Assembly: GCF_002077175.1 (NCBI RefSeq)
Contig: NZ_CP014943.1
Coordinates: 1,364,001 to 1,428,000 of the forward strand
Origin: Colwellia sp. PAMC 21821
GTDB taxonomy: Bacteria > Pseudomonadota > Gammaproteobacteria > Enterobacterales > Alteromonadaceae
Length of the DNA: 64,000 nt
Reading direction: 5' to 3'
Both the position numbers and the translations under genes were made by a program. Positions 17,258 to 33,425 of this stretch are shown in pieces; the first letter of the stretch is position 1, and every line of letters begins with the position of its first letter. The notes under the pieces are model-generated. The model saw only the letters and a program-made list of their open reading frames with translations. It was not told where the DNA came from and ran no database searches.

Positions 17258-17638
17258 CTATCTTTTATTGACGAACTTTGCCCAAGACAATAGTATTTCT
17301 CGAAAATCTTCGCGTCCACAAGATGACGAGTCCTGTTGATCAAAATCTATATCTTCTTCAATCAATGAATCTGGCAATACCTCAAGTCCGTCCATACTGG
17401 CATTAGTTTGTACTGTGACATCACCACGATTAAAAACCACCGTGTATTCGTTACCTGTTATAGTAACTTCTAACTTTTTCTCTGCTTCAATATCTGCCAT
17501 AGCTGACAATAACTGTTCAAGCTTGTCTGTATCAGTACCAACTTCAACTTCTAACCACGGACCAATAACTTCATGATCAAGTGAGAACTTAGCGATAGCG
17601 CCGCCTGTGATTGGATCATCTATAAATTGATATTCCAT
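17258..17638 (-). CDS. yacL: UPF0231 family protein YacL
   Basis: The protein has about 126 residues, starting MEYQFIDD, with the family pattern of an N-terminal MDYEF-like strand, an HEVIGPW motif and an acidic C-terminal part ending in CGREDFREILLSW, close to Escherichia YacL. The start at 17638 is chosen because GAGG lies 7-8 bases upstream and because homologues begin there; an in-frame ATG at 17701 would add an atypical extension. In Escherichia yacL follows acnB on the same strand, and here a broken acnB fragment lies upstream on this strand. Function is unknown. Confidence 0.85.
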   Translation of the reverse strand: MEYQFIDDPITGGAIAKFSLDHEVIGPWLEVEVGTDTDKLEQLLSAMADIEAEKKLEVTITGNEYTVVFNRGDVTVQTNASMDGLEVLPDSLIEEDIDFDQQDSSSCGREDFREILLSWAKFVNKR

Positions 17639-18045
17639 ATATACCTCATTCTGAAAATTTTTCGAAAAACCTATTTTACCCATTGGATTAAATAACTGCA
17701 TCGCTTAGACTCAATTATATAACCCGTTTGGCATTTTGTTAGCTAATTTCACTCAGCGTTTGCAGCAGTGTTTAACATCTAATTGAAAGCAAAAAAGCTA
17801 GCCTAAAAAACCATCATCTAATAATGAAAATCTACTATATTTAGTAAGGACCTTGTTATAATAGATATTGCCACTTAATTGTAGCAAAACCCTAGTTTTT
17901 AACACGAAATAACTCAGGTTAATGAAATAAAATAGTGTTTTAGTCTTGGCAAATAAGGAAATGATTTATCACAAATATTGGCAATAATTTTTTCATAGTA
18001 AAAATAGACTTAATTAAACAAATACCGCTGCTCGTTCGCGCTAGT
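17639..18045. other. Intergenic region between yacL and the binding-protein gene
   Basis: This 400-base stretch carries no clear gene. It contains a candidate extended -10 promoter at 17854-17862 and a short eight-codon frame at 17961-17987 directly behind AAGGAA. That frame could be a leader peptide or chance. Confidence 0.4.
17854..17862 (+). promoter_or_regulatory. Candidate extended -10 promoter element
   Basis: TGTTATAAT fits the extended -10 form (TG, one base, TATAAT) and points toward the substrate-binding protein gene. No good -35 hexamer lies 17 bases upstream, which is tolerated in extended -10 promoters. Confidence 0.4.
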
Positions 18046-18780
18046 TTGGGTTGTCTGTTTTTTTTATTTTTTATGTCATTTAAAATCACAGCGCAACCGC
18101 TAAATACTATTATTGTTGCTACGCATATTGAACCGCCATTCTCCAACATTGTTGACGGTATATTCATTGGCGAAAATATTGATATCGCCCATGCATTGGC
18201 AGCCAAATTAAATAAAAAAGCGAGTTTTGTCTATTGCCCTCCTGCTCGCTGTTTTGCACTATTACAAAGTGGTCAAGCCGACATGATGATTGCGATAAGG
18301 AAAACAGAAACAAGAAAACAGTTTCTACAATATCTTGAACCGCCAATAAAAATACAAAAGCTGCCGTTACAATTCTATATTCATGCCGACAGTAAAATCG
18401 ATTTAAATAGCTATGAAGACCTGCATTCTTTAAACATTGGCGTTTTAAGAGGAGCTTCATATTTTGATCAGTTTGACCAAGATACACAACTCTCTAAAAT
18501 TCCATTAACTAACTACCAGCAACTCGTTGATATGCTATTAAAAGGGCGCATTGACACCTTCCTTGAGCGCGAAGAAACTATCACACCCTGGGTTGATCAA
18601 AAGGTTTATAATACTCAAATTAAAATAGCGAAGTTCGCTTATGACAAAACGGTAGGATCTTATATTACGGTGTCAAAAAAATCTGCATTAGCCAATGAAA
18701 CAACACTTTTATCACAAGCCTTAAAGGACTTATCTGACAAAGGTGAGTTGCAGGCTATTGTAAAGAAAGTGAGAAATTGA
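18046..18780 (+). CDS. Periplasmic solute-binding protein, family 3-like
   Basis: About 244 residues with a hydrophobic N-terminus ending near KITAQP, then a family 3 binding-protein fold: IIVATHIEPPFS, the sequence GENIDIAHALAAKL, the central LQSGQADMMIAIRKTETR and LNIGVLRGASY. Solitary proteins of this type occur widely in Alteromonadales without transporter genes. No permease or ATPase gene is adjacent, so a sensing or scavenging role is possible. The start is unsure: the frame is open back to 17965, but TTG at 18046 is the only usual start codon and it lacks a ribosome site and basic N-region. Confidence 0.68.
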   Translation: MGCLFFLFFMSFKITAQPLNTIIVATHIEPPFSNIVDGIFIGENIDIAHALAAKLNKKASFVYCPPARCFALLQSGQADMMIAIRKTETRKQFLQYLEPPIKIQKLPLQFYIHADSKIDLNSYEDLHSLNIGVLRGASYFDQFDQDTQLSKIPLTNYQQLVDMLLKGRIDTFLEREETITPWVDQKVYNTQIKIAKFAYDKTVGSYITVSKKSALANETTLLSQALKDLSDKGELQAIVKKVRN

Positions 18781-18856
18781 GTTGAATATCAATTGAACTT
18801 ACACTGCGCTATCGCGTCTATAACTTATCTTCTATTTATCTGATATTGATATTGTT

Positions 18857-19630
18857 GTGCGAAAAGGAACTTACCCCGCCATTCTATGTTCCTTAATTAT
18901 TCATGGCATAATTGTTTATTTAATGCTGATGGCGCAACCAAACAAGCCAAAAATAGTAAAATCAACGACCAAAACAACACCGATAAAAAGCTTTATATAT
19001 TACCCACCAAATGTAGCCAAAACTGAAGCAAACGCAGTTAATAAAAAGTTGTTAGAAAAAGCCCCGACAATGGAATCGCCTGCTATTGAACAAACTGAGC
19101 TTAATAATAAACCAACAGAAAATAACCTAACGCCTGAAATAACAAAAAAAGCGCTTGATGATTCACCTCCAGCTGACTTAGCGATAATGGAAGCTATTGA
19201 ATTACCTGAAACGGACAATAAAACCACTGAGCCGACCCCCTTACCAAAGCCTACAAATAGAAAATTAGATAGTTTCACGCAATTACAAAAGCTGCGCAGT
19301 ACACTTAATAAAAATTCGCTTCAAAATACAGATAACCCCTATCAAAGCTATCAACCACCTTCAGTTTTTAACACCAACTCAACGTCGGTCCCACATTCAG
19401 TCCCCATAAAAGATGAAGAGAAAGAGCGAGAAAAAAACACTAAAAACATGGGGGCAGGAATAGCGATTACCAAAGGTGATGACGGCAGATGTTCAGTGAC
19501 TCAAGACTTAAGTGCTTATGGTTTAAGCGAAGGTTCATCTACACAATTTTTCAGCTGTGGGGAGTCAAAGTTCGATAAAAGCTTTCGTGAGCATATGAAA
19601 AAAGTTAACAGTAAATTAGGTAAAGATTAA
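18857..19630 (+). CDS. TonB-like membrane-anchored protein of unknown function
   Basis: The 257-residue protein begins with MRKGTYPAILCSLIIHGIIVY, a short basic segment followed by one transmembrane helix with an S..H pattern reminiscent of the TonB/TolA anchor. A long Pro, Lys, Thr and Asn-rich extended region follows (about 30-190), then a small C-terminal part with two Cys (CSVTQD and FFSCGE) that could form a disulphide. There is no recognisable TonB C-terminal domain and no ExbB/ExbD neighbours. The start is GTG. It lies 76 bases after the binding-protein gene and may be cotranscribed. I cannot assign a function. Confidence 0.55.
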   Translation: MRKGTYPAILCSLIIHGIIVYLMLMAQPNKPKIVKSTTKTTPIKSFIYYPPNVAKTEANAVNKKLLEKAPTMESPAIEQTELNNKPTENNLTPEITKKALDDSPPADLAIMEAIELPETDNKTTEPTPLPKPTNRKLDSFTQLQKLRSTLNKNSLQNTDNPYQSYQPPSVFNTNSTSVPHSVPIKDEEKEREKNTKNMGAGIAITKGDDGRCSVTQDLSAYGLSEGSSTQFFSCGESKFDKSFREHMKKVNSKLGKD

Positions 19631-19764
19631 TCCGATAATTTTCATGAGCATTTATAATATTGCTTTGGACTTTTTCTTTAATGGCCTATAGAGAAATGCC
19701 GATTGTAAAAATAATAATCGAGACAGGGTTATTTCTCATCAGATTAATCGTTTACTTAACCGTT

Positions 19765-19788
19765 GACGGGCTAAAGCCCGACCTACAA
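19765..19788 (+). repeat. Single REP-like arm
   Basis: This is one copy of the element GACGGGCTAAAGCCCG followed by ACCTACAA, the same sequence that makes up the array at 45.3-46.1 kb (there with CTGAAG in the loop). It has the REP layout: a GTAG-type tail on the reverse strand next to a G/C-rich hairpin. Confidence 0.8.
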
Positions 19789-19843
19789 AGAAACACCTGT
19801 CCATCAGGTTTGATTTTAAATCAAACTATAAAGCGGGATCATA

Positions 19844-19988
19844 TAAAGTAGGGTCAGATACACATTAATTGATTTTGGTGGCTTTGGTCATTGTAAAAGA
19901 GGCAATATTGAGCTCAGAGCTTGACCATGTTGCTCGTTTTAGAGGATATCAGGCAACTAAAATTTAATGTGTATCTGACCCTACTTTA
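19844..19988. mobile_element. MITE-like element with 25-bp perfect inverted ends
   Basis: The 145-base element is bounded by perfect 25-base inverted repeats at 19844-19868 and 19964-19988. Each reads inward from TAAAGTAGGGTCAGATACAC. The 95-base interior has no gene of useful length, so the element would need a transposase in trans or is a deletion derivative. It interrupts the decayed acnB reading frame just after its Gly-Cys-Ser cluster-ligand motif. I do not see a clear target-site duplication. Confidence 0.75.
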
Positions 19989-20165
19989 TTTGATGAACAA
20001 CCAGGAGGCTTGCTTCTTGCGCCCGCTTTATCATAAATACTATGGTAACCTTCAGCAGTAAGCTGGTCTCTAACCATTTCGGCGGCGCCACCCATAAGCG
20101 TGTTGGTAAGGTTTTGCCAAACTTCTCAATCAGTTTACCAGCAGTTCGGAAATGGCCATTATCAG
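19989..20165 (-). pseudogene. acnB: Remnant of canonical aconitase B (acnB), frameshifted
   Basis: Read on the minus strand, about 27 codons from 20157 give GHFRTAGKLIEKFGKTL and then PTRLWVAPP. A shift of one base near 20080 gives RDQLTAEGYHSIYDKAGAR and then PGCS. Together these follow the C-terminal domain of Escherichia AcnB (GHFRAAGKLL, PTRLWVAPP, QLTEEGYYSVFGKSGAR, PGCS). The frame is cut by the inverted-repeat element immediately after PGCS, before the second cluster Cys. Upstream of 20165 no more AcnB is recognisable except a possible FIGS at about 20215. It lies where acnB sits in Escherichia, on the strand of lpd and yacL. Confidence 0.85.
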
Positions 20166-20602
20166 AATAAATAGCTTAAAAAACCTCACCAGTATAACCG
20201 TTCTTTCTACTACCTATAAATAGCGTGAATAGTGCTTATTTAATCAAGTGATTAGTAGTAACTATAAAATCAGGTAGAATATAGGCAAATTTTACACAGC
20301 TAGGCTTTGTTGACCTTCATGTATAAATTTTGTTCGAATACACTATTGATTAACAGCAATACAATTGATGTAGCATAGTTGTCTTGATATGATTTTTTGC
20401 AACATAGCGCGAAAAAACACATGCTCAAGCTTGATATAAATGTTATACCCATTTGATTAATTAAGTGATCTACTTTTTCATGAGAAAAAATAAGCCGCTA
20501 ATTAATCAACTTGGTATTAATAAACAACTCGAACGAAACCAGTAAAAATCAACAATTCCTAGTGATAATATTACTAGTATATTTAGTCAAAGAGGGAATC
20601 AA
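20166..20602. other. Upstream region of the intact acnB
   Basis: No gene is visible here. The region contains a near-perfect 19-base inverted repeat (20445-20463 and 20499-20517) and must contain the acnB promoter. AGAGGG just before 20600 is the ribosome site. I find no convincing -35/-10 pair. Confidence 0.45.
20445..20517. repeat. Short inverted-repeat element upstream of acnB
   Basis: ATACCCATTTGATTAATTA at 20445-20463 faces TAATTAATCAACTTGGTAT at 20499-20517, with two mismatches over 19 bases and a 35-base loop. Ends of the type ATACCAA...TTGGTAT also bound the element at 32588-32650, which suggests one family of small palindromic repeats. Confidence 0.7.
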
Positions 20603-23410
20603 ATGAGCCTATATTTAGAATATATCGCAGAGATTGAAAGTCGTAAGAATGATCTAGGATTAGCACCTAAGCCGATTGATGGCGCTGAGTTATTAGCAGA
20701 AATTATCGATCAAATTAAAGATCAAGGTAACGAGCATCGTGCCGATTCACTTAACTTCTTTATCTATAATACTTTGCCAGGTACAACAAGTGCCGCAAGT
20801 GAAAAAGCTAAATTCTTGAAAGCAATTATTCTTGGTGAATCTGTTGTTGCTGAAATCTCAGTTGAGTTTGCCTTTGAATTGCTTTCTCATATGAAAGGTG
20901 GACCTTCAGTAGAAGTACTACTTGATTTAGCCTTATCTGACGATACATCGGTTGCACAACCTGCCGCAGAAGTATTAAAAACCCAAGTATTTTTATACGA
21001 TGCTGATACTGCTCGCCTTGAAGCAGCATTTAAAGCCGGTAACGCCATTGCTAAAGATATTCTAACCAGTTATGCAAACGCTGAGTTCTTTACAAAACTG
21101 CCTGAAATAGACGAGAAAATTGAAATTGTGACTTATATTGCTGGTGAAGGTGATATTTCAACAGATTTATTATCTCCAGGTCATCAATCTCATTCTCGTG
21201 CAGATCGTGAATTACATGGTCAATGCATGAGCACGCCAGAAGCTCAAGCAGAAATAAAAGCATTACAAGTTAAGTACCCTAATGCGAAAGTTATGCTTAT
21301 CGCAGAAAAAGGTACTATGGGTGTTGGTTCATCTCGTATGTCTGGTGTTAACAACGTTGCACTATTAACCGGTAAGAAAGCAAGTCAATACGTACCTTTT
21401 ATCAACATTGCACCCATTGTTGCTGGCACAAATGGTATCGCTCCAATCTTCCTAACAACGGTTGATGTAACGGGTGGTATTGGTCTTGACCTTAAAAACT
21501 GGGTTAAGAAAGTAGACGCAAGTGGTAATACCGTTGTTGACGCAAATGGTGATGCCGTGCTGGAAGAATTGTACTCAGTAGCTACAGGTACTGTATTAAC
21601 TATTGATACCAAAGCGCATAAATTATTCAACGGCGACCAAGAGCTTGCTGATATATCTTCAGCCTTTACGCCACAGAAAATGGAATTTATGAAAGCTGGT
21701 GGGTCATATGCTGTAACGTTTGGTAAGAAACTACAAACATTTGCAACAGAAGCTTTAGGTGTTGAACCTGTCAGCGTATATGCATCTTCAAAAGAAATTT
21801 CGCATGCAGGCCAAGGCTTAACGGCTGTTGAGAAAATATTTAACCGTAATGCCGTTGGTGTTTTATCTGACTCACCATTGCACGCAGGCTCAAACGTCCG
21901 TGTTAAAGTAAATATTGTCGGCTCGCAAGATACTACTGGCCCTATGACATGTCAGGAATTAGAAGCAATGGCTGCTTCTACTATATCGCCAATTGTTGAT
22001 GGTGCATTCCAATCAGGTTGTCACACAGCATCTGTTTGGGATAGTAAAGCAAAAGCGAATACGCCTAAGTTAATGAGCTTTATGAACGCGTTTGGTTTAA
22101 TCACAGCACGTGATCCTAAAGGTGTTTATCCGGCAATGACGGATGTTATTCACAAAGTATTGAATGATATTACTGTTGACGACCGCGCTATTATCATTGG
22201 TGGTGACTCGCATACACGTATGTCTAAGGGTGTTGCCTTTGGTGCCGACTCAGGCACGGTAGCAATTGCACTGGCAACGGGTGAGTCTGCAATGCCAATC
22301 CCTGAATCAGTGAAAGTGACCTTTAAAGGTCATATGAAAAAACACATGGATTTCCGTGACGTTGTTCATTCAACACAAGCACAAATGCTGAAGCAATTTG
22401 GCGGTGAAAACGTCTTCCAAGGTCGTGTAATCGAAGTACACATTGGTACGTTAATGGCTGACCAAGCATTTACTTTTACCGATTGGACTGCAGAAATGAA
22501 AGCAAAAGCTTCAATCTGTATTTCTCAAGATAATACCTTAATTGCATCACTTGAATTAGCGAAAAGTCGCATCCAAATCATGATTGATAAAGGTATGGAA
22601 AACCCAGCGAAAACGCTTCATGGTTTAATTGCTTTAGCTGATAAACGTATTGACGAGGTTAAGTCTGGTACTACACCTGCACTAAGACCTGATGCAAATG
22701 CTAAATACTTCGCTGAAGTAGTCGTTGATTTAGACCTAATCGACGAACCTATGATTGCCGATCCAGATGTAAACAACGACGACGTATCTAAGCGTTACAC
22801 GCATGACGTTATTCGCCCTGTTTCTTTCTACAATGGCAAAACGGTTGATTTAGGTTTTGTTGGTTCATGTATGGTACATAAAGGCGATATGCAAATCATT
22901 GCGCAAATGTTCCGTAATATTGAAAAGCAAAATGGTAAAATTGAATTTAAAGTACCACTAGTTGTAGCGCCACCAACATACAATATTGTTGATGAGCTTA
23001 AAGCTGAAGGCGATTGGGCAATACTACAAAAGTATTCAGGTTTCGAATTTGACGATGTAAATCCAAAAAATTCGGCACGTACTAAGTATGAAAACATCAT
23101 GTACTTAGAACGCCCTGGTTGTAACTTATGTATGGGTAACCAAGAGAAAGCTGAACCGGGTGATACGGTAATCGCTACATCTACACGCTTGTTCCAAGGT
23201 CGTGTTGTAGCTGATACCACTGAGAAAAAAGGTGAATCATTATTAGGTTCAACACCGTTAGTTGTACTTGCATCTATGTTGGGTCGTTTCCCTACATTGG
23301 CTGAATACAAAAGCGCTGTAGACGGTATTAACCTAACAGACTTTGCTCCACCAGTTGAAGTATTAACAACGCCAGCAACCGCTGCTGTTAGAATTGCTGA
23401 TCCTAGCTAA
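20603..23410 (+). CDS. acnB: Aconitate hydratase B, long divergent type
   Basis: At 935 residues this is about 70 longer than Escherichia AcnB. It keeps the N-terminal HEAT-like domain, VGSQDTTGPMT, GGDSHTR, and cluster Cys at about 756 (GSCM), 840 and 843 (GCNLCMGN). The interval between the first and second Cys is 84 residues against 59 in Escherichia, so the segment is rearranged. It should interconvert citrate and isocitrate and possibly act on 2-methylisocitrate. The first 200 residues (APKPIDGAELLAEII, FFIYNTLPGTTSAA, FLYDADT) resemble the Bacteroidota type as I recall it. It lies opposite in strand to the decayed acnB remnant and to pdh. It has its own terminator. Confidence 0.95.
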   Translation: MSLYLEYIAEIESRKNDLGLAPKPIDGAELLAEIIDQIKDQGNEHRADSLNFFIYNTLPGTTSAASEKAKFLKAIILGESVVAEISVEFAFELLSHMKGGPSVEVLLDLALSDDTSVAQPAAEVLKTQVFLYDADTARLEAAFKAGNAIAKDILTSYANAEFFTKLPEIDEKIEIVTYIAGEGDISTDLLSPGHQSHSRADRELHGQCMSTPEAQAEIKALQVKYPNAKVMLIAEKGTMGVGSSRMSGVNNVALLTGKKASQYVPFINIAPIVAGTNGIAPIFLTTVDVTGGIGLDLKNWVKKVDASGNTVVDANGDAVLEELYSVATGTVLTIDTKAHKLFNGDQELADISSAFTPQKMEFMKAGGSYAVTFGKKLQTFATEALGVEPVSVYASSKEISHAGQGLTAVEKIFNRNAVGVLSDSPLHAGSNVRVKVNIVGSQDTTGPMTCQELEAMAASTISPIVDGAFQSGCHTASVWDSKAKANTPKLMSFMNAFGLITARDPKGVYPAMTDVIHKVLNDITVDDRAIIIGGDSHTRMSKGVAFGADSGTVAIALATGESAMPIPESVKVTFKGHMKKHMDFRDVVHSTQAQMLKQFGGENVFQGRVIEVHIGTLMADQAFTFTDWTAEMKAKASICISQDNTLIASLELAKSRIQIMIDKGMENPAKTLHGLIALADKRIDEVKSGTTPALRPDANAKYFAEVVVDLDLIDEPMIADPDVNNDDVSKRYTHDVIRPVSFYNGKTVDLGFVGSCMVHKGDMQIIAQMFRNIEKQNGKIEFKVPLVVAPPTYNIVDELKAEGDWAILQKYSGFEFDDVNPKNSARTKYENIMYLERPGCNLCMGNQEKAEPGDTVIATSTRLFQGRVVADTTEKKGESLLGSTPLVVLASMLGRFPTLAEYKSAVDGINLTDFAPPVEVLTTPATAAVRIADPS

Positions 23411-23549: not shown

Positions 23550-23912
23550 TTATTTGATAGCAGCTGGACACTCAATATTAGCGGATAGCGACGGCATGAT
23601 CATATTAGGAAATGACAATTTGTCATCAAAGCGTTCAACACCTTCTAGCACTTCAATTTTAAAGCCATAGCTTTTACAAATACGTAATGAGCGGCGCATT
23701 AAAAACGTAGCCAATTTACTAAACTCGGTATTTTGCTTAGCAATAACTTGCAGATGATGCTTACCGTTCTCCAAATCGGTTTGTTTGAATTGTATTTGAT
23801 GATCAAAATCCCATTGCGAGGCACCATTGGGCGTCTCCTTTTGGGTTGAGCAAGCACTCAGTAGTATCAAAGACGATAATAAAATAATATTTTTCATAGT
23901 GTTAATATCCAT
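23550..23912 (-). CDS. Small lipoprotein of unknown function
   Basis: This is a protein of about 120 residues with a lipoprotein signal (LLSAC lipobox near residue 20), followed by a short soluble domain with two further Cys (RICKSYGF and NIECPAA) that may form a disulphide. I chose the ATG at 23912 because GAGG lies nine bases upstream; an ATG five codons further in also fits a signal peptide. It is convergent with acnB. No function can be assigned. Confidence 0.6.
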   Translation of the reverse strand: MDINTMKNIILLSSLILLSACSTQKETPNGASQWDFDHQIQFKQTDLENGKHHLQVIAKQNTEFSKLATFLMRRSLRICKSYGFKIEVLEGVERFDDKLSFPNMIMPSLSANIECPAAIK

Positions 23913-23991
23913 ATAGCTAAACCTCAAGTTATGAGATTAATGTTATTTAGTATAGTCTGACAGACAATCTATGAAAACAAAATTAAGACCT

Positions 23992-24039: not shown

Positions 24040-25992
24040 TTATTTTAAGTGCTGCTTAAGGAAATCGTTGAGTTCTTTAAATGCCTCAAGCCTATTATCG
24101 GCTTCGTCTAAATAATGAGTACCATATTCGAACTCAACATATTTTACATCTAAGCCGGCGCTTTTCGCCTTATTAAAAAAATCTGATGATTGCTCTACAC
24201 GGACTTGGGTATCATATCGACCATGCATTAATAAAATAGGCGATTTAATTTTATTAATATGATTAATCGCAGATAAACGCTCCAATTCACCCGCCACTTT
24301 ATCATCCGTTGGATCGCCGATAGTGTTAACTATACTTGCACGTATATTTCCTTGCCATCTATAGTCTTTTTCTGCCAAGGTATACAAATCACTAATACCT
24401 GCAATACTAACAATACATCGATATTGTTCCGGCTGTTGAAATGCAGCTGTCAATGCGGCGTAACCACCATAGCTGTAACCTGCAAAACAAGATTTATTAG
24501 TATCAACAAGGTCTTTACCTTTTAACCAGTCAAAACCATTATACAAGTCCTGCTGCATACGTTTGCCCCACTGATGGTAACCTGCAGTTTCAAAGTTTGT
24601 ACCAAAACCGCCAGATCCTCGATAGTTCACCTGTAAAACGGCATAACCTTGGCTAGTAAAAAACTGAACGTAAGGATCAAAGGTTTGATAATCTCTTATA
24701 CCAATAGGCCCGCCGTGTGGCCAAACAACAAGCGGAGGTTTGCTTTCACTATTGCTACTCAGAGGTAAGGTCAAATACCCGGTCAAACCAACACCGTCAT
24801 CCGCATCAAATTTTATCGGTAATACATTAGGCATAGCCTGCCTTTCTAAAAAAGGATAAGTACTAAACCACAAGCCCCCTTTTTTATTTTTAATATCTAA
24901 CCAAAAAAATTTTTGCGGACTATTATCTTTTGTCGCATAAACCAGCATTTTAGTTTTATCTTCACTACGGCTAAATATAGTTGCTTGATAACCTTTGAAG
25001 CTATTTTTAACTAAAGAAGAGATCTTGCTGTCTTCATCTTGAAAGTAATGTTCGCGTAAGTAATCATCGTAATAGTAAACGCCGATAACACGGCTTCTGT
25101 CTGCATTATAGATCGCAGAGGTAACATCATACTCCTCATGTCCAAATAACATATCAGCAAATTTACCGGTTTTTATATCGTAAGACCACAGAGCTTTTCG
25201 TCTAGTTTTATAATCACTTATAACAAGTAGCTTATCATCCTGTACTATAATCGGAGAGAATTTTTCGCCCCTGTATGCTTTTTGCTTATGTAGCAGTTTC
25301 CATTCAGATTGCTCATTCTTTCTATGCCAAATTGTATTTACATCGCTAATTTTTTTACTTTTTTCAGTGCCGTAACCAAATAGCACTTCGCCCTTTTCAT
25401 TAGCAACCCACGCATACACATCAAACTTATTTACAAATAGCTTATCAAAGTCATTTTCATAAACATTAACTTTATATACCGCTTGAGCTTCATCTCTATA
25501 ATCATATGTTTGCAATAACACGTGCTTTTTATCATCTTTTAATAACGATACAAGTCGCAAGCTTCCAGCATTTCTAATTTCCCATGGTGCCGCACTAGGT
25601 GGCATTTTCGTTTTAAGCTCAACAAGATCAGTGCCATCCGTATTCACCGAAAAAATACGATCGCGTCTAAATCTGCGATTAAGTATATTTTCTGAATAAC
25701 TGGCAACAATTAATAGACGTGATGAATTTACCCACGCAATATCTTCAATACGATCTTGAGACTTCTTCAGTTGTACAATTGTTGATACTTCAGCCGAACC
25801 AAAATCACTAATAACGACGCTAGGACCATCACTAGCATTATAAATTGCCGCTATAAATTTACCATTAGGTGATACGCTCGGGTACTCTATCATTGGCAGC
25901 GTACCGAACTGTTCATAATTCAAAGCCGGTGTTTTCGCATGCCCAAAATAGGCAACCAGACTTAACATAAGAGTTAGTAATATTTTATTCAT
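24040..25992 (-). CDS. Secreted S9-family prolyl oligopeptidase-like peptidase
   Basis: The 650-residue protein has a signal peptide (MNKILLTLMLSLVAYFGHA), an N-terminal beta-propeller region (about 30-390), and a C-terminal alpha/beta-hydrolase peptidase domain. The catalytic elements are GYSYGGYA (nucleophile Ser), LLMHGRYDTQV (Asp) and YGTHYL (His). It likely cleaves short peptides in the periplasm or outside the cell, as dipeptidyl or acylaminoacyl peptidase relatives do. The start is set at ATG 25992 because TTGGA lies eight bases upstream. It lies between lpd and acnB, in the position of yacH in Escherichia. Confidence 0.87.
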   Translation of the reverse strand: MNKILLTLMLSLVAYFGHAKTPALNYEQFGTLPMIEYPSVSPNGKFIAAIYNASDGPSVVISDFGSAEVSTIVQLKKSQDRIEDIAWVNSSRLLIVASYSENILNRRFRRDRIFSVNTDGTDLVELKTKMPPSAAPWEIRNAGSLRLVSLLKDDKKHVLLQTYDYRDEAQAVYKVNVYENDFDKLFVNKFDVYAWVANEKGEVLFGYGTEKSKKISDVNTIWHRKNEQSEWKLLHKQKAYRGEKFSPIIVQDDKLLVISDYKTRRKALWSYDIKTGKFADMLFGHEEYDVTSAIYNADRSRVIGVYYYDDYLREHYFQDEDSKISSLVKNSFKGYQATIFSRSEDKTKMLVYATKDNSPQKFFWLDIKNKKGGLWFSTYPFLERQAMPNVLPIKFDADDGVGLTGYLTLPLSSNSESKPPLVVWPHGGPIGIRDYQTFDPYVQFFTSQGYAVLQVNYRGSGGFGTNFETAGYHQWGKRMQQDLYNGFDWLKGKDLVDTNKSCFAGYSYGGYAALTAAFQQPEQYRCIVSIAGISDLYTLAEKDYRWQGNIRASIVNTIGDPTDDKVAGELERLSAINHINKIKSPILLMHGRYDTQVRVEQSSDFFNKAKSAGLDVKYVEFEYGTHYLDEADNRLEAFKELNDFLKQHLK

Positions 25993-26060
25993 TATTTGCA
26001 TCCAAGCTATTGTTATTTATTTGTTAATCTCAACAATATATTTATACACCATTTGGACAC

Positions 26061-26134: not shown

Positions 26135-27565
26135 TTATTTTTTCTTTTTAACGGCTTTAGGGTTTGGCATATCAGTAATCGTACCTTCAAAGATCTCTGC
26201 AGCCATACCGATTGATTCATTTAATGTTGGGTGAGCATGAATAGTAAGACCTATGTCTTCAGCATCAGCGCCCATTTCAACGGCTAAACAAACTTCACCT
26301 AGCATTTCACCAGCATTGATACCAACAATAGCACCACCTAATACACGGCCAGTTTCTTTTTCGAAGATCATCTTAGTTTTACCTTCAGTACGCGCAGAAG
26401 CAATTGCACGACCAGAAGCAGCCCAAGGGAAGTTAGCCACTTCAATGTTCAAGCCTTGCTCTTTCGCTTCACGTTCTGTAACGCCAACCCAAGCCATTTC
26501 TGGATCAGTATAAGCAATTGAAGGAATACAACGTGGTTCAAAAGTATGTTTCTTGCCTGAGATAACTTCAGCAGCACAATGCGCTTCATGTACCGCTTTA
26601 TGCGCAAGCATAGGTTGACCAACAACATCGCCAATGGCGAAAATGTGGTTAACGTTAGTGCGAAGCTCATTAGTTACGTTGATAAAGCCACGCTCATCAA
26701 CATTAACACCGGCTTTATCTGCAGCAACTAAGTGACCGTTCGGCTTACGACCAACAGCAACTAGAATTTTATCGTAGCGTACTTGCCCTTCTGGGGCATT
26801 TTTGCCTTCAAAAGTAACATATAAACCATCGTCTTTAGCATCAACAGCAACAACTTTCGTTGACAACATAATGTTGAATTTTTTGCTATTGTATTTAGTA
26901 TAAACTTGCACAATATCTTTATCAGCTGCAGGTACTAATTGGTCAGCAAATTCTACTACTGAAACATTTGAACCTAACGCACGATATACCGTACCCATTT
27001 CTAAACCGATAATGCCGCCACCCAGTACTAACATTTCTTCTGGTACGTCTTGAAGCTCTAAAGCACCGGTTGAATCGATAACACGTGGATCATCTTTTGG
27101 AATAAAAGGTAAATCTACTACTGATGAACCCGCAGCTATAATCGCGTTGTCAAAAGTGATGGTTGTTTTACCGTCAGCGCCTTCAACTTCAATAGTTTTA
27201 TCTGAAGTGAATTTACCGTAACCAAATACTGTTTTAACTTTACGTGCTTTAGCCATTCCGCCTAAACCACCTGTTAATTGACTAATAACCTTTTCTTTCC
27301 AGCCACGAATTTTGTCTAAATCAATTTTTGGTGCGCCAAAAGTAACACCATGAGAAGCCATTGCTGCTGCATCGTCAATAACTTTAGCTACGTGTAAAAG
27401 TGCTTTTGATGGGATACAACCCACATTCAAACAAACGCCACCAAGCGTTTCACGGCTTTCAACTAATATTACGTCTAAACCTAAATCTGCTGCGCGAAAT
27501 GCTGCTGAATAGCCACCAGGACCCGCACCTAAAACTACTACTTGAGTTTTAATATCGTTACTCAT
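26135..27565 (-). CDS. lpdA: Dihydrolipoyl dehydrogenase (E3)
   Basis: This 476-residue flavoprotein reoxidises dihydrolipoamide of the pyruvate (and oxoglutarate) dehydrogenase complexes, with NAD as acceptor. It shows the FAD-binding GAGPGG at 13-18, the redox disulphide GGVCLNVGC (Cys 45 and 50), the NAD-binding GGGIIGLE and the C-terminal HAHPT with the catalytic His. It is the last gene of the pdh cluster, separated from aceF by 256 bases that hold a strong inverted repeat. The length equals that of Escherichia Lpd (474). Confidence 0.97.
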   Translation of the reverse strand: MSNDIKTQVVVLGAGPGGYSAAFRAADLGLDVILVESRETLGGVCLNVGCIPSKALLHVAKVIDDAAAMASHGVTFGAPKIDLDKIRGWKEKVISQLTGGLGGMAKARKVKTVFGYGKFTSDKTIEVEGADGKTTITFDNAIIAAGSSVVDLPFIPKDDPRVIDSTGALELQDVPEEMLVLGGGIIGLEMGTVYRALGSNVSVVEFADQLVPAADKDIVQVYTKYNSKKFNIMLSTKVVAVDAKDDGLYVTFEGKNAPEGQVRYDKILVAVGRKPNGHLVAADKAGVNVDERGFINVTNELRTNVNHIFAIGDVVGQPMLAHKAVHEAHCAAEVISGKKHTFEPRCIPSIAYTDPEMAWVGVTEREAKEQGLNIEVANFPWAASGRAIASARTEGKTKMIFEKETGRVLGGAIVGINAGEMLGEVCLAVEMGADAEDIGLTIHAHPTLNESIGMAAEIFEGTITDMPNPKAVKKKK

Positions 27566-27821: not shown

Positions 27822-29792
27822 TTATAGGATGAGTTTTCTAATATCACTCATTACACCTGCCAGATGTACAGTAAAGCGTGCCGCTAGTGCGCCGTCAATT
27901 ACACGATGGTCGTAGGACATAGATAACGGTAACATTAACTTAGGTTCAAAATCTTTACCATTCCATTTAGGTTTCATTTCTGATTTAGAAACACCTAAAA
28001 TCGCTACTTCTGGAGCATTAACAATCGGCGTAAAAGCCGTACCGCCAATACCACCAAGGCTAGAAATAGTAAAACAACCGCCTTGCATATCCGTCGCTTT
28101 TAACTTGCCGTCACGCGCTTTTATGCTAATTTCAAGTAATTCACGCGATAACTGGTGAATGCCTTTTTGATCAACATCACGCACGACCGGTACAACTAAA
28201 CCATTAGGTGTATCAACCGCAACACCAATGTGAATATACTTTTTCAGAATTAAGCTTTCACCGTCTTCACTCAAGCTAGAGTTAAAGGTTGGAAAGGTGC
28301 GCAATGCATCTGCTGCGGCTTTTAAAATAAACACTAATGGCGTAATTTTAAAACCCAACTTTTGCTTTTCACAAATAACGTTTTGTTCTTTACGGAAGGC
28401 TTCAACATTGGTGATGTCGGCTTCATCAAACTGCGTAACATGCGGGATAGTTACCCAGTTACGATGTAAGAAAGGACCCGATATTTTCTGAATACGTGTC
28501 AGTGCTTTCGTTTCAACTTCACCAAACTTCGAGAAATCAATTTGCTTAGCGCTAACAACTTGTAAACCACCTTCACCAGCCGCTACTGAACTACCCGCAT
28601 TAGCTTTCGGACGTGACAATTCATATTTAACATACGACTGTACATCTTCTTTTAAAATACGGCCTTTACGTCCAGTACCTTTGACTAACGTTAAATCAAC
28701 TCCAAACTCGCGAGCAATGCGTCGAATAGAAGGTGAAGTATAAATAGCATCGGCATTCGTTAAACCAATTTGTGGATGATGCGGCACAGGCGCTGATTTT
28801 TTAGCTGCTGGCGCTGGTGCTTGGCTAGCAGCCGGTGCTGGCGCTGAAGTAGCTTCAGGCGCTGCTTCCTGAGCAGGAGCACCAGACGACGTTTCAAGCT
28901 TGATAACAATTGAACCTTGCTTAACTTTATCACCCGTACTGATCAATACTTCTTTTACCGTTCCGGCATGTGACGATGGCACATCCATAGTGGCTTTATC
29001 TGTTTCTAGCGTGATCAAGCCATCTTCAGCTTCAATAACATCGCCAACAGCAACCAGTACATCAATAACGTCAACTTCGCCATCTTCGCCAATATCAGGT
29101 ACCGCTATTTCGATAACTTCACTGCTTGCAGCCGCCGCAGGCGCTGATTTCTCAGCAGCAGGAGCTGGCGTAGCAGGCGCTTCTTCAGATGCAGGTGCAC
29201 TTGATGAAGTTTCAAGCTTAATCACAATAGAGCCTTGCTTAACTTTATCACCGGTATTAATCAGCACTTCTTTAACTGTACCAGCATGAGGTGACGGAAC
29301 ATCCATAGTCGCTTTATCAGTTTCTAACGTGATCAAGCCATCTTCAGCTTCTATCACATCACCAACCGCAACCAGTACTTCGATAACGTCAACTTCGCCA
29401 TCTTCACCAATATCAGGTACGGCAATTTCAATAACTTCACTGCTAGTTGCAGCACTTGGCGCTTTTTCTGCTGCCGGTGCTTCAGCCTTAGCTTCTGGTT
29501 CAGCTTTTACTTCTGACTCAGCCGCAACAGGTGCTTCTGCTGTATCTTCAGCAGCAGCGCTCTTCATCTCGGCAATAACATCACCTTCTTTGATCTTGTC
29601 ACCAACTTTAACGGATAACGCAACAAGCTCACCAGCAAATGGGGCTGGAATATCCATTGATGCTTTATCAGTTTCTACGGTAATAATACCTTCGTCAGCT
29701 TCTAAACTGTCGCCTACTGCAAAACAAATCTCGATAACTTCTACTTCATCGCCACCGACATCTGGGACTAGAATTTTTTCAATATCAGACAT
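27822..29792 (-). CDS. aceF: Pyruvate dehydrogenase E2, dihydrolipoamide acetyltransferase
   Basis: 656 residues. Three lipoyl domains lie in the N-terminal half, each with a lipoylated Lys in DKA (first at 43, the others near 157 and 268), joined by Ala, Pro and Glu-rich linkers. A peripheral subunit-binding domain follows (SIRRIAREFGVDLTLVKGTG), then the catalytic acetyltransferase domain ending with the active-site SYDHRVIDGA. It transfers acetyl from lipoamide to CoA and forms the core of the complex. Lipoyl domains two and three differ at only three residues in about 80, while domain one is clearly different. It is 25 bases downstream of aceE. Confidence 0.97.
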   Translation of the reverse strand: MSDIEKILVPDVGGDEVEVIEICFAVGDSLEADEGIITVETDKASMDIPAPFAGELVALSVKVGDKIKEGDVIAEMKSAAAEDTAEAPVAAESEVKAEPEAKAEAPAAEKAPSAATSSEVIEIAVPDIGEDGEVDVIEVLVAVGDVIEAEDGLITLETDKATMDVPSPHAGTVKEVLINTGDKVKQGSIVIKLETSSSAPASEEAPATPAPAAEKSAPAAAASSEVIEIAVPDIGEDGEVDVIDVLVAVGDVIEAEDGLITLETDKATMDVPSSHAGTVKEVLISTGDKVKQGSIVIKLETSSGAPAQEAAPEATSAPAPAASQAPAPAAKKSAPVPHHPQIGLTNADAIYTSPSIRRIAREFGVDLTLVKGTGRKGRILKEDVQSYVKYELSRPKANAGSSVAAGEGGLQVVSAKQIDFSKFGEVETKALTRIQKISGPFLHRNWVTIPHVTQFDEADITNVEAFRKEQNVICEKQKLGFKITPLVFILKAAADALRTFPTFNSSLSEDGESLILKKYIHIGVAVDTPNGLVVPVVRDVDQKGIHQLSRELLEISIKARDGKLKATDMQGGCFTISSLGGIGGTAFTPIVNAPEVAILGVSKSEMKPKWNGKDFEPKLMLPLSMSYDHRVIDGALAARFTVHLAGVMSDIRKLIL

Positions 29793-29817
29793 TTCTTAAT
29801 TCCTTATCTAGTCTTAA

Positions 29818-32493
29818 TTACGCGTAAAGCGGGTTAATTTTGTCAGCATCAATGTTAAAGCGTTTAATCGCTTCACTTACCACTTTGCTTTTAATCTCAC
29901 CACGGTTTGCCAATTCATAAAGCGCAGCAACAACAATGTAGTTTTGATCAACTTCAAAATGTTGACGTAGGTTATCGCGGCTATCGCTGCGGCCAAAACC
30001 GTCAGTACCTAATACACGATACTCAGTGTCGATATAAGCACGCACTTGGTCAGAATAGTTTTTAACATAATCTGTTGCAGCAATGGCTGGGCCTTTTTCT
30101 GCCGTAATTATCTTAGAAATATAGGCTGTTTTTTGCTTGCTTTCAGGGTGCAACATGTTCCAGCGCGTTACTTCTTGTCCTTCACGTGCTAGTTCGTTGA
30201 ATGAAGTAACAGAATAAACGTCACTTGATACACCGTAATCAGCCGACAAAATTTGTGCTGCTTGACGAACTTTTTGTAAAATTGTACCTGACCCCATTAA
30301 CTGTACGTTGGCTTTAGCTTTTTTAGCTTCAACACGTTCAAGTTGGTAAATACCTTTAATGATTTCGTCTTCAACATCTTTATTTTCTGGCATAGCCGGA
30401 TGTTGATAGTTTTCATTCATCAGCGTTAAGTAGAAGAAGATGTTTTCATTTTCTTCGTACATACGGCGTAAACCTTCACGCACGATAACAGCAATTTCAT
30501 AACCGTAAGTTGGATCATAAGTTACACAATTAGGAATTAAGCCCGCTTGCACATGTGAATGACCATCTTGATGTTGTAAACCTTCACCGTTAAGCGTCGT
30601 TCTACCTGCAGTAGCACCTAATAAGAAACCACGTGCTTGGCTATCTGCCGCTGCCCATGCTAAATCACCAACACGTTGGAAACCAAACATTGAATAGTAA
30701 ATGTAAAATGGAATTGTCGTGGCATTACAAGTTGAATAAGACGTACCCGAAGCAACCCAAGACGCCATAGCACCTAGCTCGTTAATACCTTCTTGTAATA
30801 CTTGGCCTTTCTTATCTTCACGGTAATAAGCCACTTGGTCAGCATCTTGTGGAACATATTTTTGACCTTCGCTGGCATAAATACCCACTTGGCGGAATAA
30901 ACCTTCCATACCAAAAGTACGCGCTTCGTCAGGAATAATAGGCACGATACGCTTACCGATTTTCTTATCTTTTAGTAAGCTGTTTAGTACACGAACAAAA
31001 GTCATTGTTGATGATACTTCACGCTCACCTGAACCTTTTAATATTGGCTCAAATATTTTTAATGCCGGAATATCAAGTGACTCTTCCGCTTGTTGGCGAC
31101 GCGCAGGTAATGAACCACCTAATGCTTCACGACGTGCTTTCATGTACTTATATTCTTCGCTATCTTCTGGGAACTTGAAGAAAGGTAAGTCAGCAATTTC
31201 TTCATCGCTTACCGGAATATTAAAACGATTACGGTAATGCTTAAGCGAATCAACATCCATTTTCTTAACGTTATGCGCAATGTTTAATGCTTCACCTGAA
31301 GCACCTAAACCAAAACCTTTAACGGTTTTAGCAAGAATAACCGTTGGACGACCTTTGGTGTTCATCGCTTTTTCATAAGCCGCATAAACTTTAACAGGAT
31401 CATGACCACCACGGTTTAAACGCCAAATATCTTGATCAGACATATTCGCGACTAGCGCTGCTGTTTCAGGATACTTGTTAAAGAAGTTTTCGCGTGTGTA
31501 CTTACCGCCTTTGGCTTTACAGTTCTGGTATTCACCATCAACCGTTTCGTTCATTAACTGTAGTAATTTACCTGAAGTATCGCGGGCAATTAATGCATCC
31601 CAGTAAGAACCCCAAATTACTTTAACAACTTCCCAGCCTGCGCCGCGGAATGTACCTTCAAGTTCTTGAATAATTTTACCATTACCACGAACAGGACCAT
31701 CTAAACGCTGTAAATTACAGTTGATAACAAATGTTAAGTTATCTAAACCTTCACGCGTTGCAAGGCCGATAGCACCTAACGATTCTGGCTCATCAGTTTC
31801 ACCATCACCTAGGAAACAATAAACACGTTGGCCTGAACAATCTTTAATACCACGGTCAGTAAGGTACTTAAGGAAACGTGCAGTATAAATAGCCTGTAAT
31901 GGACCTAAGCCCATTGAAACAGTAGGGAACTGCCAAAAGTCAGGCATTAAATGCGGATGCGGGTATGAAGACAAACCTTTACCATCACACTCTTGACGGA
32001 AGTTATTCATTTGCTCTTCCGTTAATCTGCCTTCCATAAAGGCACGAGCATAAATACCCGGAGAAATATGACCTTGAGCAAAAATAAAGTCGCCGCCATC
32101 TTTTTCAGATGAAGCTTTAAAGAAGTGGTTGAAACCAACATCATATAAAGTAGACGAAGAAGCAAAGCTACCAATATGGCCACCAAGCTCTAAATCTTTT
32201 TTAGACGCGCGTAATACCAACACTAAAGCATTCCAACGAATAGCAGCACGAATACGTGACTCTATTGTTTGGTCAGCCGGCATATGCGGTTCTAACCCTG
32301 GTGGAATAGTATTTACATAAGCAGTTTTGGCGTCAAACGGTAAATGTGTACCGCTACGACGGGCTCTATCGATTAATTTTTCAAGTAGAAAATGAGCACG
32401 TTCTGGCCCTTCTTTTTCTAACACAGACTCCATTGATTCCAACCATTCTTGGGTTTCCATTGAATCAATATCTAGATTTGGGAGCTCAGACAT
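29818..32493 (-). CDS. aceE: Pyruvate dehydrogenase E1 component
   Basis: This 891-residue homodimeric E1 (887 in Escherichia) decarboxylates pyruvate and acetylates the lipoyl group of E2. The thiamine diphosphate motif is present as GDGETDEPESLGAI through to INCN, and the region SHVQAGLIPNC and the C-terminal LGTDGFGRSDSR are typical. It follows pdhR on the same strand after 146 bases, so it may be read from the pdhR promoter and from its own. Confidence 0.97.
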   Translation of the reverse strand: MSELPNLDIDSMETQEWLESMESVLEKEGPERAHFLLEKLIDRARRSGTHLPFDAKTAYVNTIPPGLEPHMPADQTIESRIRAAIRWNALVLVLRASKKDLELGGHIGSFASSSTLYDVGFNHFFKASSEKDGGDFIFAQGHISPGIYARAFMEGRLTEEQMNNFRQECDGKGLSSYPHPHLMPDFWQFPTVSMGLGPLQAIYTARFLKYLTDRGIKDCSGQRVYCFLGDGETDEPESLGAIGLATREGLDNLTFVINCNLQRLDGPVRGNGKIIQELEGTFRGAGWEVVKVIWGSYWDALIARDTSGKLLQLMNETVDGEYQNCKAKGGKYTRENFFNKYPETAALVANMSDQDIWRLNRGGHDPVKVYAAYEKAMNTKGRPTVILAKTVKGFGLGASGEALNIAHNVKKMDVDSLKHYRNRFNIPVSDEEIADLPFFKFPEDSEEYKYMKARREALGGSLPARRQQAEESLDIPALKIFEPILKGSGEREVSSTMTFVRVLNSLLKDKKIGKRIVPIIPDEARTFGMEGLFRQVGIYASEGQKYVPQDADQVAYYREDKKGQVLQEGINELGAMASWVASGTSYSTCNATTIPFYIYYSMFGFQRVGDLAWAAADSQARGFLLGATAGRTTLNGEGLQHQDGHSHVQAGLIPNCVTYDPTYGYEIAVIVREGLRRMYEENENIFFYLTLMNENYQHPAMPENKDVEDEIIKGIYQLERVEAKKAKANVQLMGSGTILQKVRQAAQILSADYGVSSDVYSVTSFNELAREGQEVTRWNMLHPESKQKTAYISKIITAEKGPAIAATDYVKNYSDQVRAYIDTEYRVLGTDGFGRSDSRDNLRQHFEVDQNYIVVAALYELANRGEIKSKVVSEAIKRFNIDADKINPLYA

Positions 32494-32587
32494 AATTACT
32501 TAGTCTCCATTTGTTGTTTGTTAAGTAAATTTAGTTGTTTAAAGATAGCTGCTTTTAAGCAATTATCCTTACTCGTTTTAATTTTTT

Positions 32588-32650
32588 ATACCAATACAGT
32601 TTAAATGAATGAATTATCACTAATCGATAATTCGTTGAGTTAATTGGTAT
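32588..32650. repeat. Small palindromic repeat at the 3' end of pdhR
   Basis: ATACCAAT at 32588-32595 faces ATTGGTAT at 32643-32650, and an inner hairpin (GAATTATC/GATAATTC, 32611-32633) lies between them. The right end covers the last codons and stop of pdhR. It could serve as a processing or termination structure between pdhR and aceE. Confidence 0.55.
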
Positions 32651-33425
32651 CAACTTTCGGTCGTTTCATTCTGCGTATAGAACGTTCCATACGGCTATTT
32701 TCCTGTGACATTTTTAATAGCACTTCTTCAATGAAAGCTAAATGTCGATGGCTAGCTCCCCAAGCAATTTGGGGTTTACCACTGACAATCGCACTCATTA
32801 AACGCGTGCGATAATCAGATATTTGGCCAAACACGTCAGGTCGCTTAGCCAAAGTTGTTAAATTTTTCTCAATGTTGTCAATCAACAACGGCGCCATACT
32901 ATTGGCTAAATGCAAAATAACCGCATTATGACTCGCCGCGCATATAGCGATATAAAATTCGAATACGGCTTCAGCTTCAAGGCGGTAACTATCTTCAAGT
33001 TGTGCCGTGCCAATGTTGTCATGCTTGCGCTGAATTTCATCAAAATCAGCTTGTGTACCGCGCATCGCTGCATAGTAAGCCGACATCCCCTCAATACCAT
33101 GACGAAACTCTAATAAATCAAATTGTGACTCATTATTATTCGCCATTAAGGCAAATAGTGGGTCTGACAGACCACCCAAAATTTTATCACTTACAAAGGT
33201 TCCGCCACCTTGGCGACGCGTGACTAAATTTTTTGCTTCTAACTTTTGAATAGCTTCACGCAATGAAGGTCGAGACACATCGAACTGCTTTGCTAGTTCT
33301 CGCTCTGCCGGTAACTTTTGTCCGGGCTTTAAACTACCTTCTAGGATCATAGTCTCAAGCTGAGCCAAAATAATATCTGACAACTTAGCTTGCTTTACCG
33401 GTTTTTCAATACTCGGAATCGACAT
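32640..33425 (-). CDS. pdhR: Pyruvate dehydrogenase complex repressor PdhR
   Basis: The 261-residue GntR/FadR-family regulator has an N-terminal winged helix (about 10-78, with PGQKLPAERELAKQFDVSRPSLREA cut in the usual way by helix-turn-helix) and an all-helical effector domain of the FCD type that binds pyruvate in Escherichia. It begins the pdhR-aceE-aceF-lpd cluster and a matching operator lies 80 bases upstream, so autoregulation is likely. Its last three codons lie inside a palindromic repeat. Confidence 0.95.
   Translation of the reverse strand: MSIPSIEKPVKQAKLSDIILAQLETMILEGSLKPGQKLPAERELAKQFDVSRPSLREAIQKLEAKNLVTRRQGGGTFVSDKILGGLSDPLFALMANNNESQFDLLEFRHGIEGMSAYYAAMRGTQADFDEIQRKHDNIGTAQLEDSYRLEAEAVFEFYIAICAASHNAVILHLANSMAPLLIDNIEKNLTTLAKRPDVFGQISDYRTRLMSAIVSGKPQIAWGASHRHLAFIEEVLLKMSQENSRMERSIRRMKRPKVDTN

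Follow-up and report, generated by a model that had tools for sequence, protein, structure and literature searches.

In Escherichia, acnB, the gene for aconitase B, is taken here to lie between the pdh cluster and yacL on the same strand as both. In the stretch of 64,000 nucleotides of the genome of Colwellia sp. PAMC 21821 (G000) that was analysed (the window), the corresponding locus holds an intact acnB of a long, divergent type on the plus strand and, beside it, a minus-strand fragment of an acnB of the canonical type. How was the canonical gene lost, and did the long gene arrive recently as its replacement? A preliminary description had placed the locus correctly, flanked by a YacL-type gene (UPF0231) and, at its other end, by lpd, aceF, aceE and pdhR, and had proposed that a foreign acnB settled next to the resident gene, which then decayed. 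The reading strongly favoured here is a different one. The ancestral locus would have held two acnB genes head-to-head, the canonical one on the minus strand and one of the long type, as in Bacteroidota, on the plus strand; this old pair would have lost its canonical member repeatedly, the survivor in G000 would have received a stretch resembling that of Colwellia polaris, and the long enzyme would be active.

The canonical acnB remnant and its deletion

The comparison was based on G182 (locus L233), a sister species that is the closest genome of the genus to G000 and carries both acnB types. G000 was sister to G182 on the rpoB tree (15 genomes, 100/100) and on the gyrB tree (17 genomes, 100/99), and the two genomes were 97.3% identical in rpoB and 95.8% in gyrB. 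The fragment was confirmed to be a piece of canonical acnB lying in two frames: along 177 bp it was 86.4% identical to the canonical gene that G182 has intact (blastn, E 2.3e-56), and its unmended sequence changes frame at a 4-base deletion. The position given for it earlier needs only slight correction: the match begins at 19993, and bases 19847-19985 belong to a distinct repeat. Among named records, it was most like Colwellia sp. MB3u-45, with 85% identity along 145 bp (E 2.7e-41). Remnants were searched for in 32 upstream regions, each of at most 1.8 kb, and the same sequences reversed served as the control. The reversed control gave two DNA matches, of 19 and 26 bp (E 0.003 and 0.009), and no protein matches among its 32 sequences. 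This control and the E value of 2e-56 to G182 ruled out chance or another family as the source of the fragment.

The first and second codon positions hold 9 of the 20 differences between the remnant and G182; for intact genes compared with G182, the same positions hold 3 of 21, 3 of 25, 4 of 30, 5 of 31 and 3 of 37. Together with the 4-base deletion, this pattern fits a gene free of selection, although the numbers are small.

A block map against L233 showed that G000 aligns to G182 in three blocks, with gaps of ~2.39 and ~2.79 kb. The missing ~2.39 kb correspond to canonical codons 1 to ~709 and ~250 bp upstream of them, which are present in G182. What survives of canonical acnB is an island of 173 bp beside a repeat resembling a REPIN, left there by the two gaps, of ~2.4 and ~2.8 kb. 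On the other side of the remnant, the sequence from 20179 to ~20300, which adjoins the deletion, is nearly identical to G182. The longer segment 20179-20700 matched G182 12533-12021 at 79% overall, with the highest identity in the first 120 bp (blastn); sliding windows starting at 20050-20500 scored highest to G182, and at 20350-20650 the likeness to G182 and to C. polaris was about equal. The canonical acnB of G000 was lost after the split from G182, which retains the gene, and the earlier claim that the loss is recent was correct.

The long-type enzyme and its allele

The long protein was described earlier as longer than usual, with a wider spacing of its cluster cysteines, and this was borne out. 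It has 935 residues and Cys 756/840/843, with a spacing of 84 from the first to the second; in G182, canonical AcnB is 72 residues shorter (863 aa) and has Cys 708/767/770, where this spacing is 59. The extra blocks of the long type lie mainly at residues 298-321 and 813-832. The Pfam domains follow one another as PF11791 (7-163), PF06434 (179-406) and PF00330 (411-894), which is the order found in E. coli AcnB (PDB 1L5J) and the canonical model TIGR00117, and 1L5J was also the closest solved structure (E 1.8e-86). The protein passes NCBIfam NF006690 (938 bits, cut-off 782) but fails TIGR00117 (363 bits, cut-off 1287; 1499 bits for the neighbouring canonical gene in L036). To canonical AcnB of full length from within the genus, it is only 35-36% identical (the long type as a whole, ~30-37%). 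The resemblance to the Bacteroidota type suggested earlier was evident as 77-79% identity, over nearly the full length, to eight long AcnB proteins from Flavobacterium, Sporocytophaga and Fluviicola.

In an alignment of five long and five canonical AcnB sequences, 193 columns were invariant. The motifs GSQDTTG, QSxCHT, GGDSHTR, GSSR, GSCM and PGCxLCMGNQ and the cluster cysteines were kept throughout; GSCM, PGCxLCMGNQ, GDSHTR, GSSR and GSQDTTG are shared with E. coli and canonical AcnB. These motifs and cysteines presumably have catalytic roles. Because the invariant columns include them, the long AcnB is likely to have aconitase activity. A structure predicted for the long AcnB from 28 aligned rows was too poor to use, with a pLDDT averaging 57.8.

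G000 also encodes an AcnD and an intact AcnA (L269). Given this AcnA, the exchange of roles between two aconitases that was suggested earlier is not claimable for this strain. In three relatives (G119, G143 and G056), no AcnA or canonical AcnB was found, and long AcnB and AcnD (TIGR02333, above cut-off) were present. Since AcnA was not found there, a takeover is plausible in these three: the long AcnB is probably their working aconitase of the tricarboxylic acid (TCA) cycle and, apart from AcnD, would carry out the aconitase step alone. A second acnA copy of G000 (L268, G000:C1:2918833-2921495) lies in two frames with an internal stop; with L269 intact, redundant aconitases appear to be decaying elsewhere in this genome too.

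The long gene of G000 is 93.3% identical to that of C. polaris (G197) and 81.2% to that of G182; the identity of C. polaris to G000 is 92.9% in rpoB and 87.5% in gyrB. In sliding windows, ~20800-22750 was 90-98% identical to C. polaris and 77-85% to G182, and the tail of the gene was mixed and closer to G199 and G200. The flanks at 17.7-20.3 kb and 25.9-32.5 kb are G182-like, with aceF 94.8% identical. The best reading of these identities is that the surviving long gene took in the C. polaris-like stretch by homologous recombination. Because the allele resembles that of C. polaris while the flanks resemble G182, the long gene of G000 would be foreign in a narrow sense, having replaced another long acnB. 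Two classes of long-gene allele seem to be present in the genus, one in G000, G197, G199, G200 and G201 and the other in the remaining genomes, at odds with the rpoB tree.

Both changes occurred at one locus in one lineage, so a single recombination could have removed canonical acnB and brought in the C. polaris-like allele. However, this is unlikely, since the DNA adjoining the deletion is nearly identical to G182 and the sliding windows across it are best matched there, and one event for both was disfavoured. The canonical gene was probably not deleted as a consequence of the import.

Age, loss and spread of the acnB pair

A long acnB was found in all 17 genomes of the genus sample (in G056 it is divided between the ends of two contigs), and a canonical acnB above the cut-off in seven, in each of which it is adjacent to and divergent from the long gene. 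The family sample comprised 196 genomes in 52 genera, and its typing rests on the best-scoring matches listed. Among these, 28 genomes had both types, 43 just the long and 121 just the canonical gene, and 4, with completeness of 71-84%, had neither; four long-only and two canonical entries are partial or split genes. The long gene was thus present in 71 genomes and 24 genera. The two genes were divergent in 18 of the 28 carriers of both, from seven genera, with 263-674 bp between them; the other carriers had them in tandem within 3 kb (four) or 7 kb (two), far apart (one) or on different contigs (three). As such divergent pairs are also seen outside the genus, the pair would be older than the genus.

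According to the preliminary description, the Bacteroidota-type gene arrived recently beside the resident in the lineage of G000. The locus does hold a decayed resident next to a gene of Bacteroidota-like type, and the decay is recent. A single recent event, however, is at odds with the presence of the long gene throughout the genus and in almost half of the family's genera among the matches listed, and the occurrence of the pair in the sister G182 and in further genera refutes its timing. Relatives in which both genes are intact, named beforehand as a finding that would count against the proposal, were seen in 7 of the 17 genus genomes, as judged from sequence. A recent arrival is thus highly improbable and was ruled out.

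The distribution argues instead for repeated loss of the canonical partner from an old pair. The label "both" or "long only" required six changes on the rpoB tree and five on the gyrB tree, at least four being forced by starred branches in each. It was not significantly clustered, as shuffled labels gave counts as low in 500 of 500 trials (rpoB) and in ~200 of 500 (gyrB). If an ancestral pair is assumed, seven losses are counted on the rpoB tree, some of them on weakly supported branches. G201 differs from its sister G200 by a clean single deletion of 6.6 kb that includes all of canonical acnB, and remnants in the same orientation were found in Colwellia L034 (codons ~830-863) and L056 (codons ~511-544). 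Because the deletion endpoints and the remnant codons differ, the losses appear to be independent, and the redundancy of the two genes would have permitted them. No remnant of a long gene above 60% identity was found beside canonical acnB in the best-scoring 30 of 149 family loci (flanks of ~1.5 kb, some ending at contig ends).

Alternatively, the two enzymes may be specialised, for example for iron or oxidant supply, and the losses may follow habitat and not drift. The pair kept in 28 of 196 genomes, the divergent region shared by 18 of them and the mixed acnB content in 14 of the 34 genera represented by at least two typed genomes are in line with this idea, but the closest sisters differ in acnB content, and specialisation is regarded as possible yet doubtful.

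Two loci show further fragments. In Paraglaciecola sp. MB-3u-78, a 5' fragment of canonical acnB (L092:5745-5852, codons 6-41, 58%) lies just upstream of the long gene and is possibly a trace of long-gene insertion; a full canonical acnB lies downstream. In a Moraxellaceae bin (L111:1731-2471), a partial canonical acnB (codons 418-705) is divergent from an intact long gene, which could be a second decaying pair or an assembly artefact.

Phylogenies of long AcnB were built from 91 of 114 rows (near-duplicates out), from 57 chosen rows of the 114 and from 84 rows; sampling of Bacteroidota was narrow. The 91-row tree was disturbed by a misread-frame row, L230 (end branch 10), which was excluded from the other two. 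In the 57-row tree, the marine gammaproteobacterial rows, including the window gene, formed one clade (100/99) and the Bacteroidota rows a group of their own (100/100); these joined at 98/95, with the alphaproteobacterial rows outside. The phylogeny proposed earlier as a check thus placed the window gene apart from the Bacteroidota proteins. The canonical outgroup, on a branch of 5 changes per column, attached among alphaproteobacterial rows in the 57-row tree; in the 91-row tree, it fell within the gammaproteobacterial rows, which were not one group, and Bacteroidota joined the alphaproteobacterial rows. Unrooted, the three groups were arranged identically in both trees. The rooting differed between the trees, and with it the implied direction of transfer.

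The long type was 80-96% identical to 80 gammaproteobacterial loci kept of 588 and 75-78% identical to 13 members from Alphaproteobacteria or other classes. It was found in 19 of 398 genomes across the phylum (two candidates scored per genome), 11 of the same class, G000 included, and 8 labelled as another class. The long genes of these 8 grouped with alphaproteobacterial plasmid genes in the 91-row tree. Among 72,556 plasmid records, 38 carried the long type (E up to 1e-100), one from Alteromonas and 37 from other genera (taxonomy line checked for six records), which we take to be Alphaproteobacteria. On the Alteromonas macleodii plasmid pBGP9 (L211), a long and a canonical acnB lie ~5 kb apart. 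In the 84-row tree, Marinomonas (8 rows) and Colwellia (10) needed five changes each, Psychromonas (4) and Paraglaciecola (4) four each, and Pseudoalteromonas (5) and Alteromonas (3) one each. The simplest reading is that the long gene was transferred among marine genera, although the names of metagenome bins may be wrong.

The single gammaproteobacterial clade would also be expected if both types were old in this class and purely vertical in descent, the different lineages having lost one or the other without any transfer. This is, however, hardly credible given the identity of 75-79% across alphaproteobacterial and Bacteroidota rows, the changes needed within Marinomonas, Psychromonas, Paraglaciecola and Colwellia, the plasmid records and the scarcity of the gene across the phylum.

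Several observations weigh against an old pair with repeated loss and import. Only 3 of the 32 upstream regions, the one in this window among the 3, held a relic. Among the seven carriers, canonical identity tracks gyrB only moderately (r 0.58, 21 pairs; long gene 0.65). Recombination at the locus could also shift the single or paired state between species, so that not every change of label need be a loss. The long gene of G056 is split at contig ends, and G204 is 66% complete. To the right of the long gene, 23.5-25.8 kb are 73-86% identical to G182, and in the C. polaris DNA compared, no match was found beyond ~23.8 kb, so that the reach and origin of the import can be given only tentatively. 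Two ancestral allele classes could also mimic an import, which is less likely.

Tentatively, and with less confidence than the old pair itself, the two types may be seen as an ancient acnB module of marine Gammaproteobacteria, either partner of which is dropped or swapped by recombination, perhaps responsive to iron or oxidants and partly spread by plasmids; two ~35% identical types of a TCA-cycle enzyme would then have been exchanged repeatedly at one locus.

Repeats, neighbouring genes and significance

The features of the locus are collected in Table 1. The YacL-type gene is above the Pfam cut-off for UPF0231 and below the NCBIfam YacL cut-offs. A YacL-type or lpd gene lies inside the ~1.5-kb flanks of canonical acnB in 12 of 30 other family genomes and not in 18, and the long acnB of several named genomes has one or the other as its neighbour. 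Compared with the adjoining pdh genes, the small gene (23550-23927) and the S9-type peptidase are far less G182-like, and the peptidase had no match in the C. polaris DNA compared.

Table 1. Positions of features around acnB in the window
Feature	Position	Strand	Evidence or remark
UPF0231 (YacL-type) gene	17258..17701	-	PF06062, 99 bits; flank of acnB locus
Gene	18857-19630		90.8% identical to G182
REPIN-like paired inverted repeat	19847..19985		At remnant 3' end; ~2.79 kb of G182 sequence missing there
Canonical acnB remnant, ~codons 710-768, 4-base deletion	19993..20165	-	blastn to G182
Deletion junction	20166..20178		Block map against L233
Retained intergenic region between lost and surviving acnB	20179..20602		Closest to G182; blastn, sliding windows
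Long acnB, intact; product of 935 aa, a bifunctional aconitate hydratase 2/2-methylisocitrate dehydratase	20603..23410	+	
C. polaris-like (G197) allele stretch inside long gene	20800..22750	+	Sliding windows, whole-gene identities
Small gene	23550-23927		77.5% identical to G182
S9-type peptidase	24040-26001		
lpd, dihydrolipoyl dehydrogenase	26135..27565	-	TIGR01350, 484 bits, above cut-off; 94.5% DNA identity to G182
aceF, aceE, pdhR	27822..33425	-	NF008814, TIGR00759, NF007001, above cut-offs

The 22-base end motif of the repeat beside the remnant occurs in 35 copies in the genome (at most 3 mismatches; 21 exact) and in none in the reversed control, and 11 inverted pairs of it span 138-139 bp. 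A Y1_Tnp gene (PF01797, RAYT-type; G000:C1:313739-314065) lies between the copies of one cluster (313091-314385). REPINs are paired REP repeats linked to RAYT transposases (PMC3116915). The inverted pairs of short repeats, their many copies and the Y1_Tnp gene among them resemble these, as judged by the number of copies, their pairing and the transposase domain close by. Another repeat of REP-like type, GACGGGCTAAAGCCCGACCTACAAA, lies at 19756-19795 of the window, after the 18857-19630 gene, and several further copies of this type are present in G182 (L233 17047-17887). Downstream of canonical acnB in G182, the stretch missing from G000 (L233:15300-18100) contains a row of REP repeats and a 391-aa frame that looks like a transposase.

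In xenologous gene displacement, a resident gene is replaced by a homologue of other descent. The locus resembles it in that a homologue of another type stands where the resident was lost and left a remnant. It differs in that canonical only, both, both with a remnant and long only coexist in one family, and in that the surviving gene itself carries an allele of another lineage. The locus appears to be a well-documented case of a known process, in which a homologue of a different type displaces a core gene time and again, and the stages can still be made out. No earlier description of transfer or replacement of AcnB was found in the literature searched, which was covered partially and not exhaustively.

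Genes of core pathways are usually regarded as vertically inherited and hard to swap. At this locus, stages in the swap of a TCA-cycle enzyme are visible among close relatives as remnants, deletion endpoints and sister pairs, and the replacement of a redundant central enzyme becomes directly testable. Caution is advisable when acnB is used as a marker gene and when the regulation of E. coli AcnB is assumed in these bacteria.

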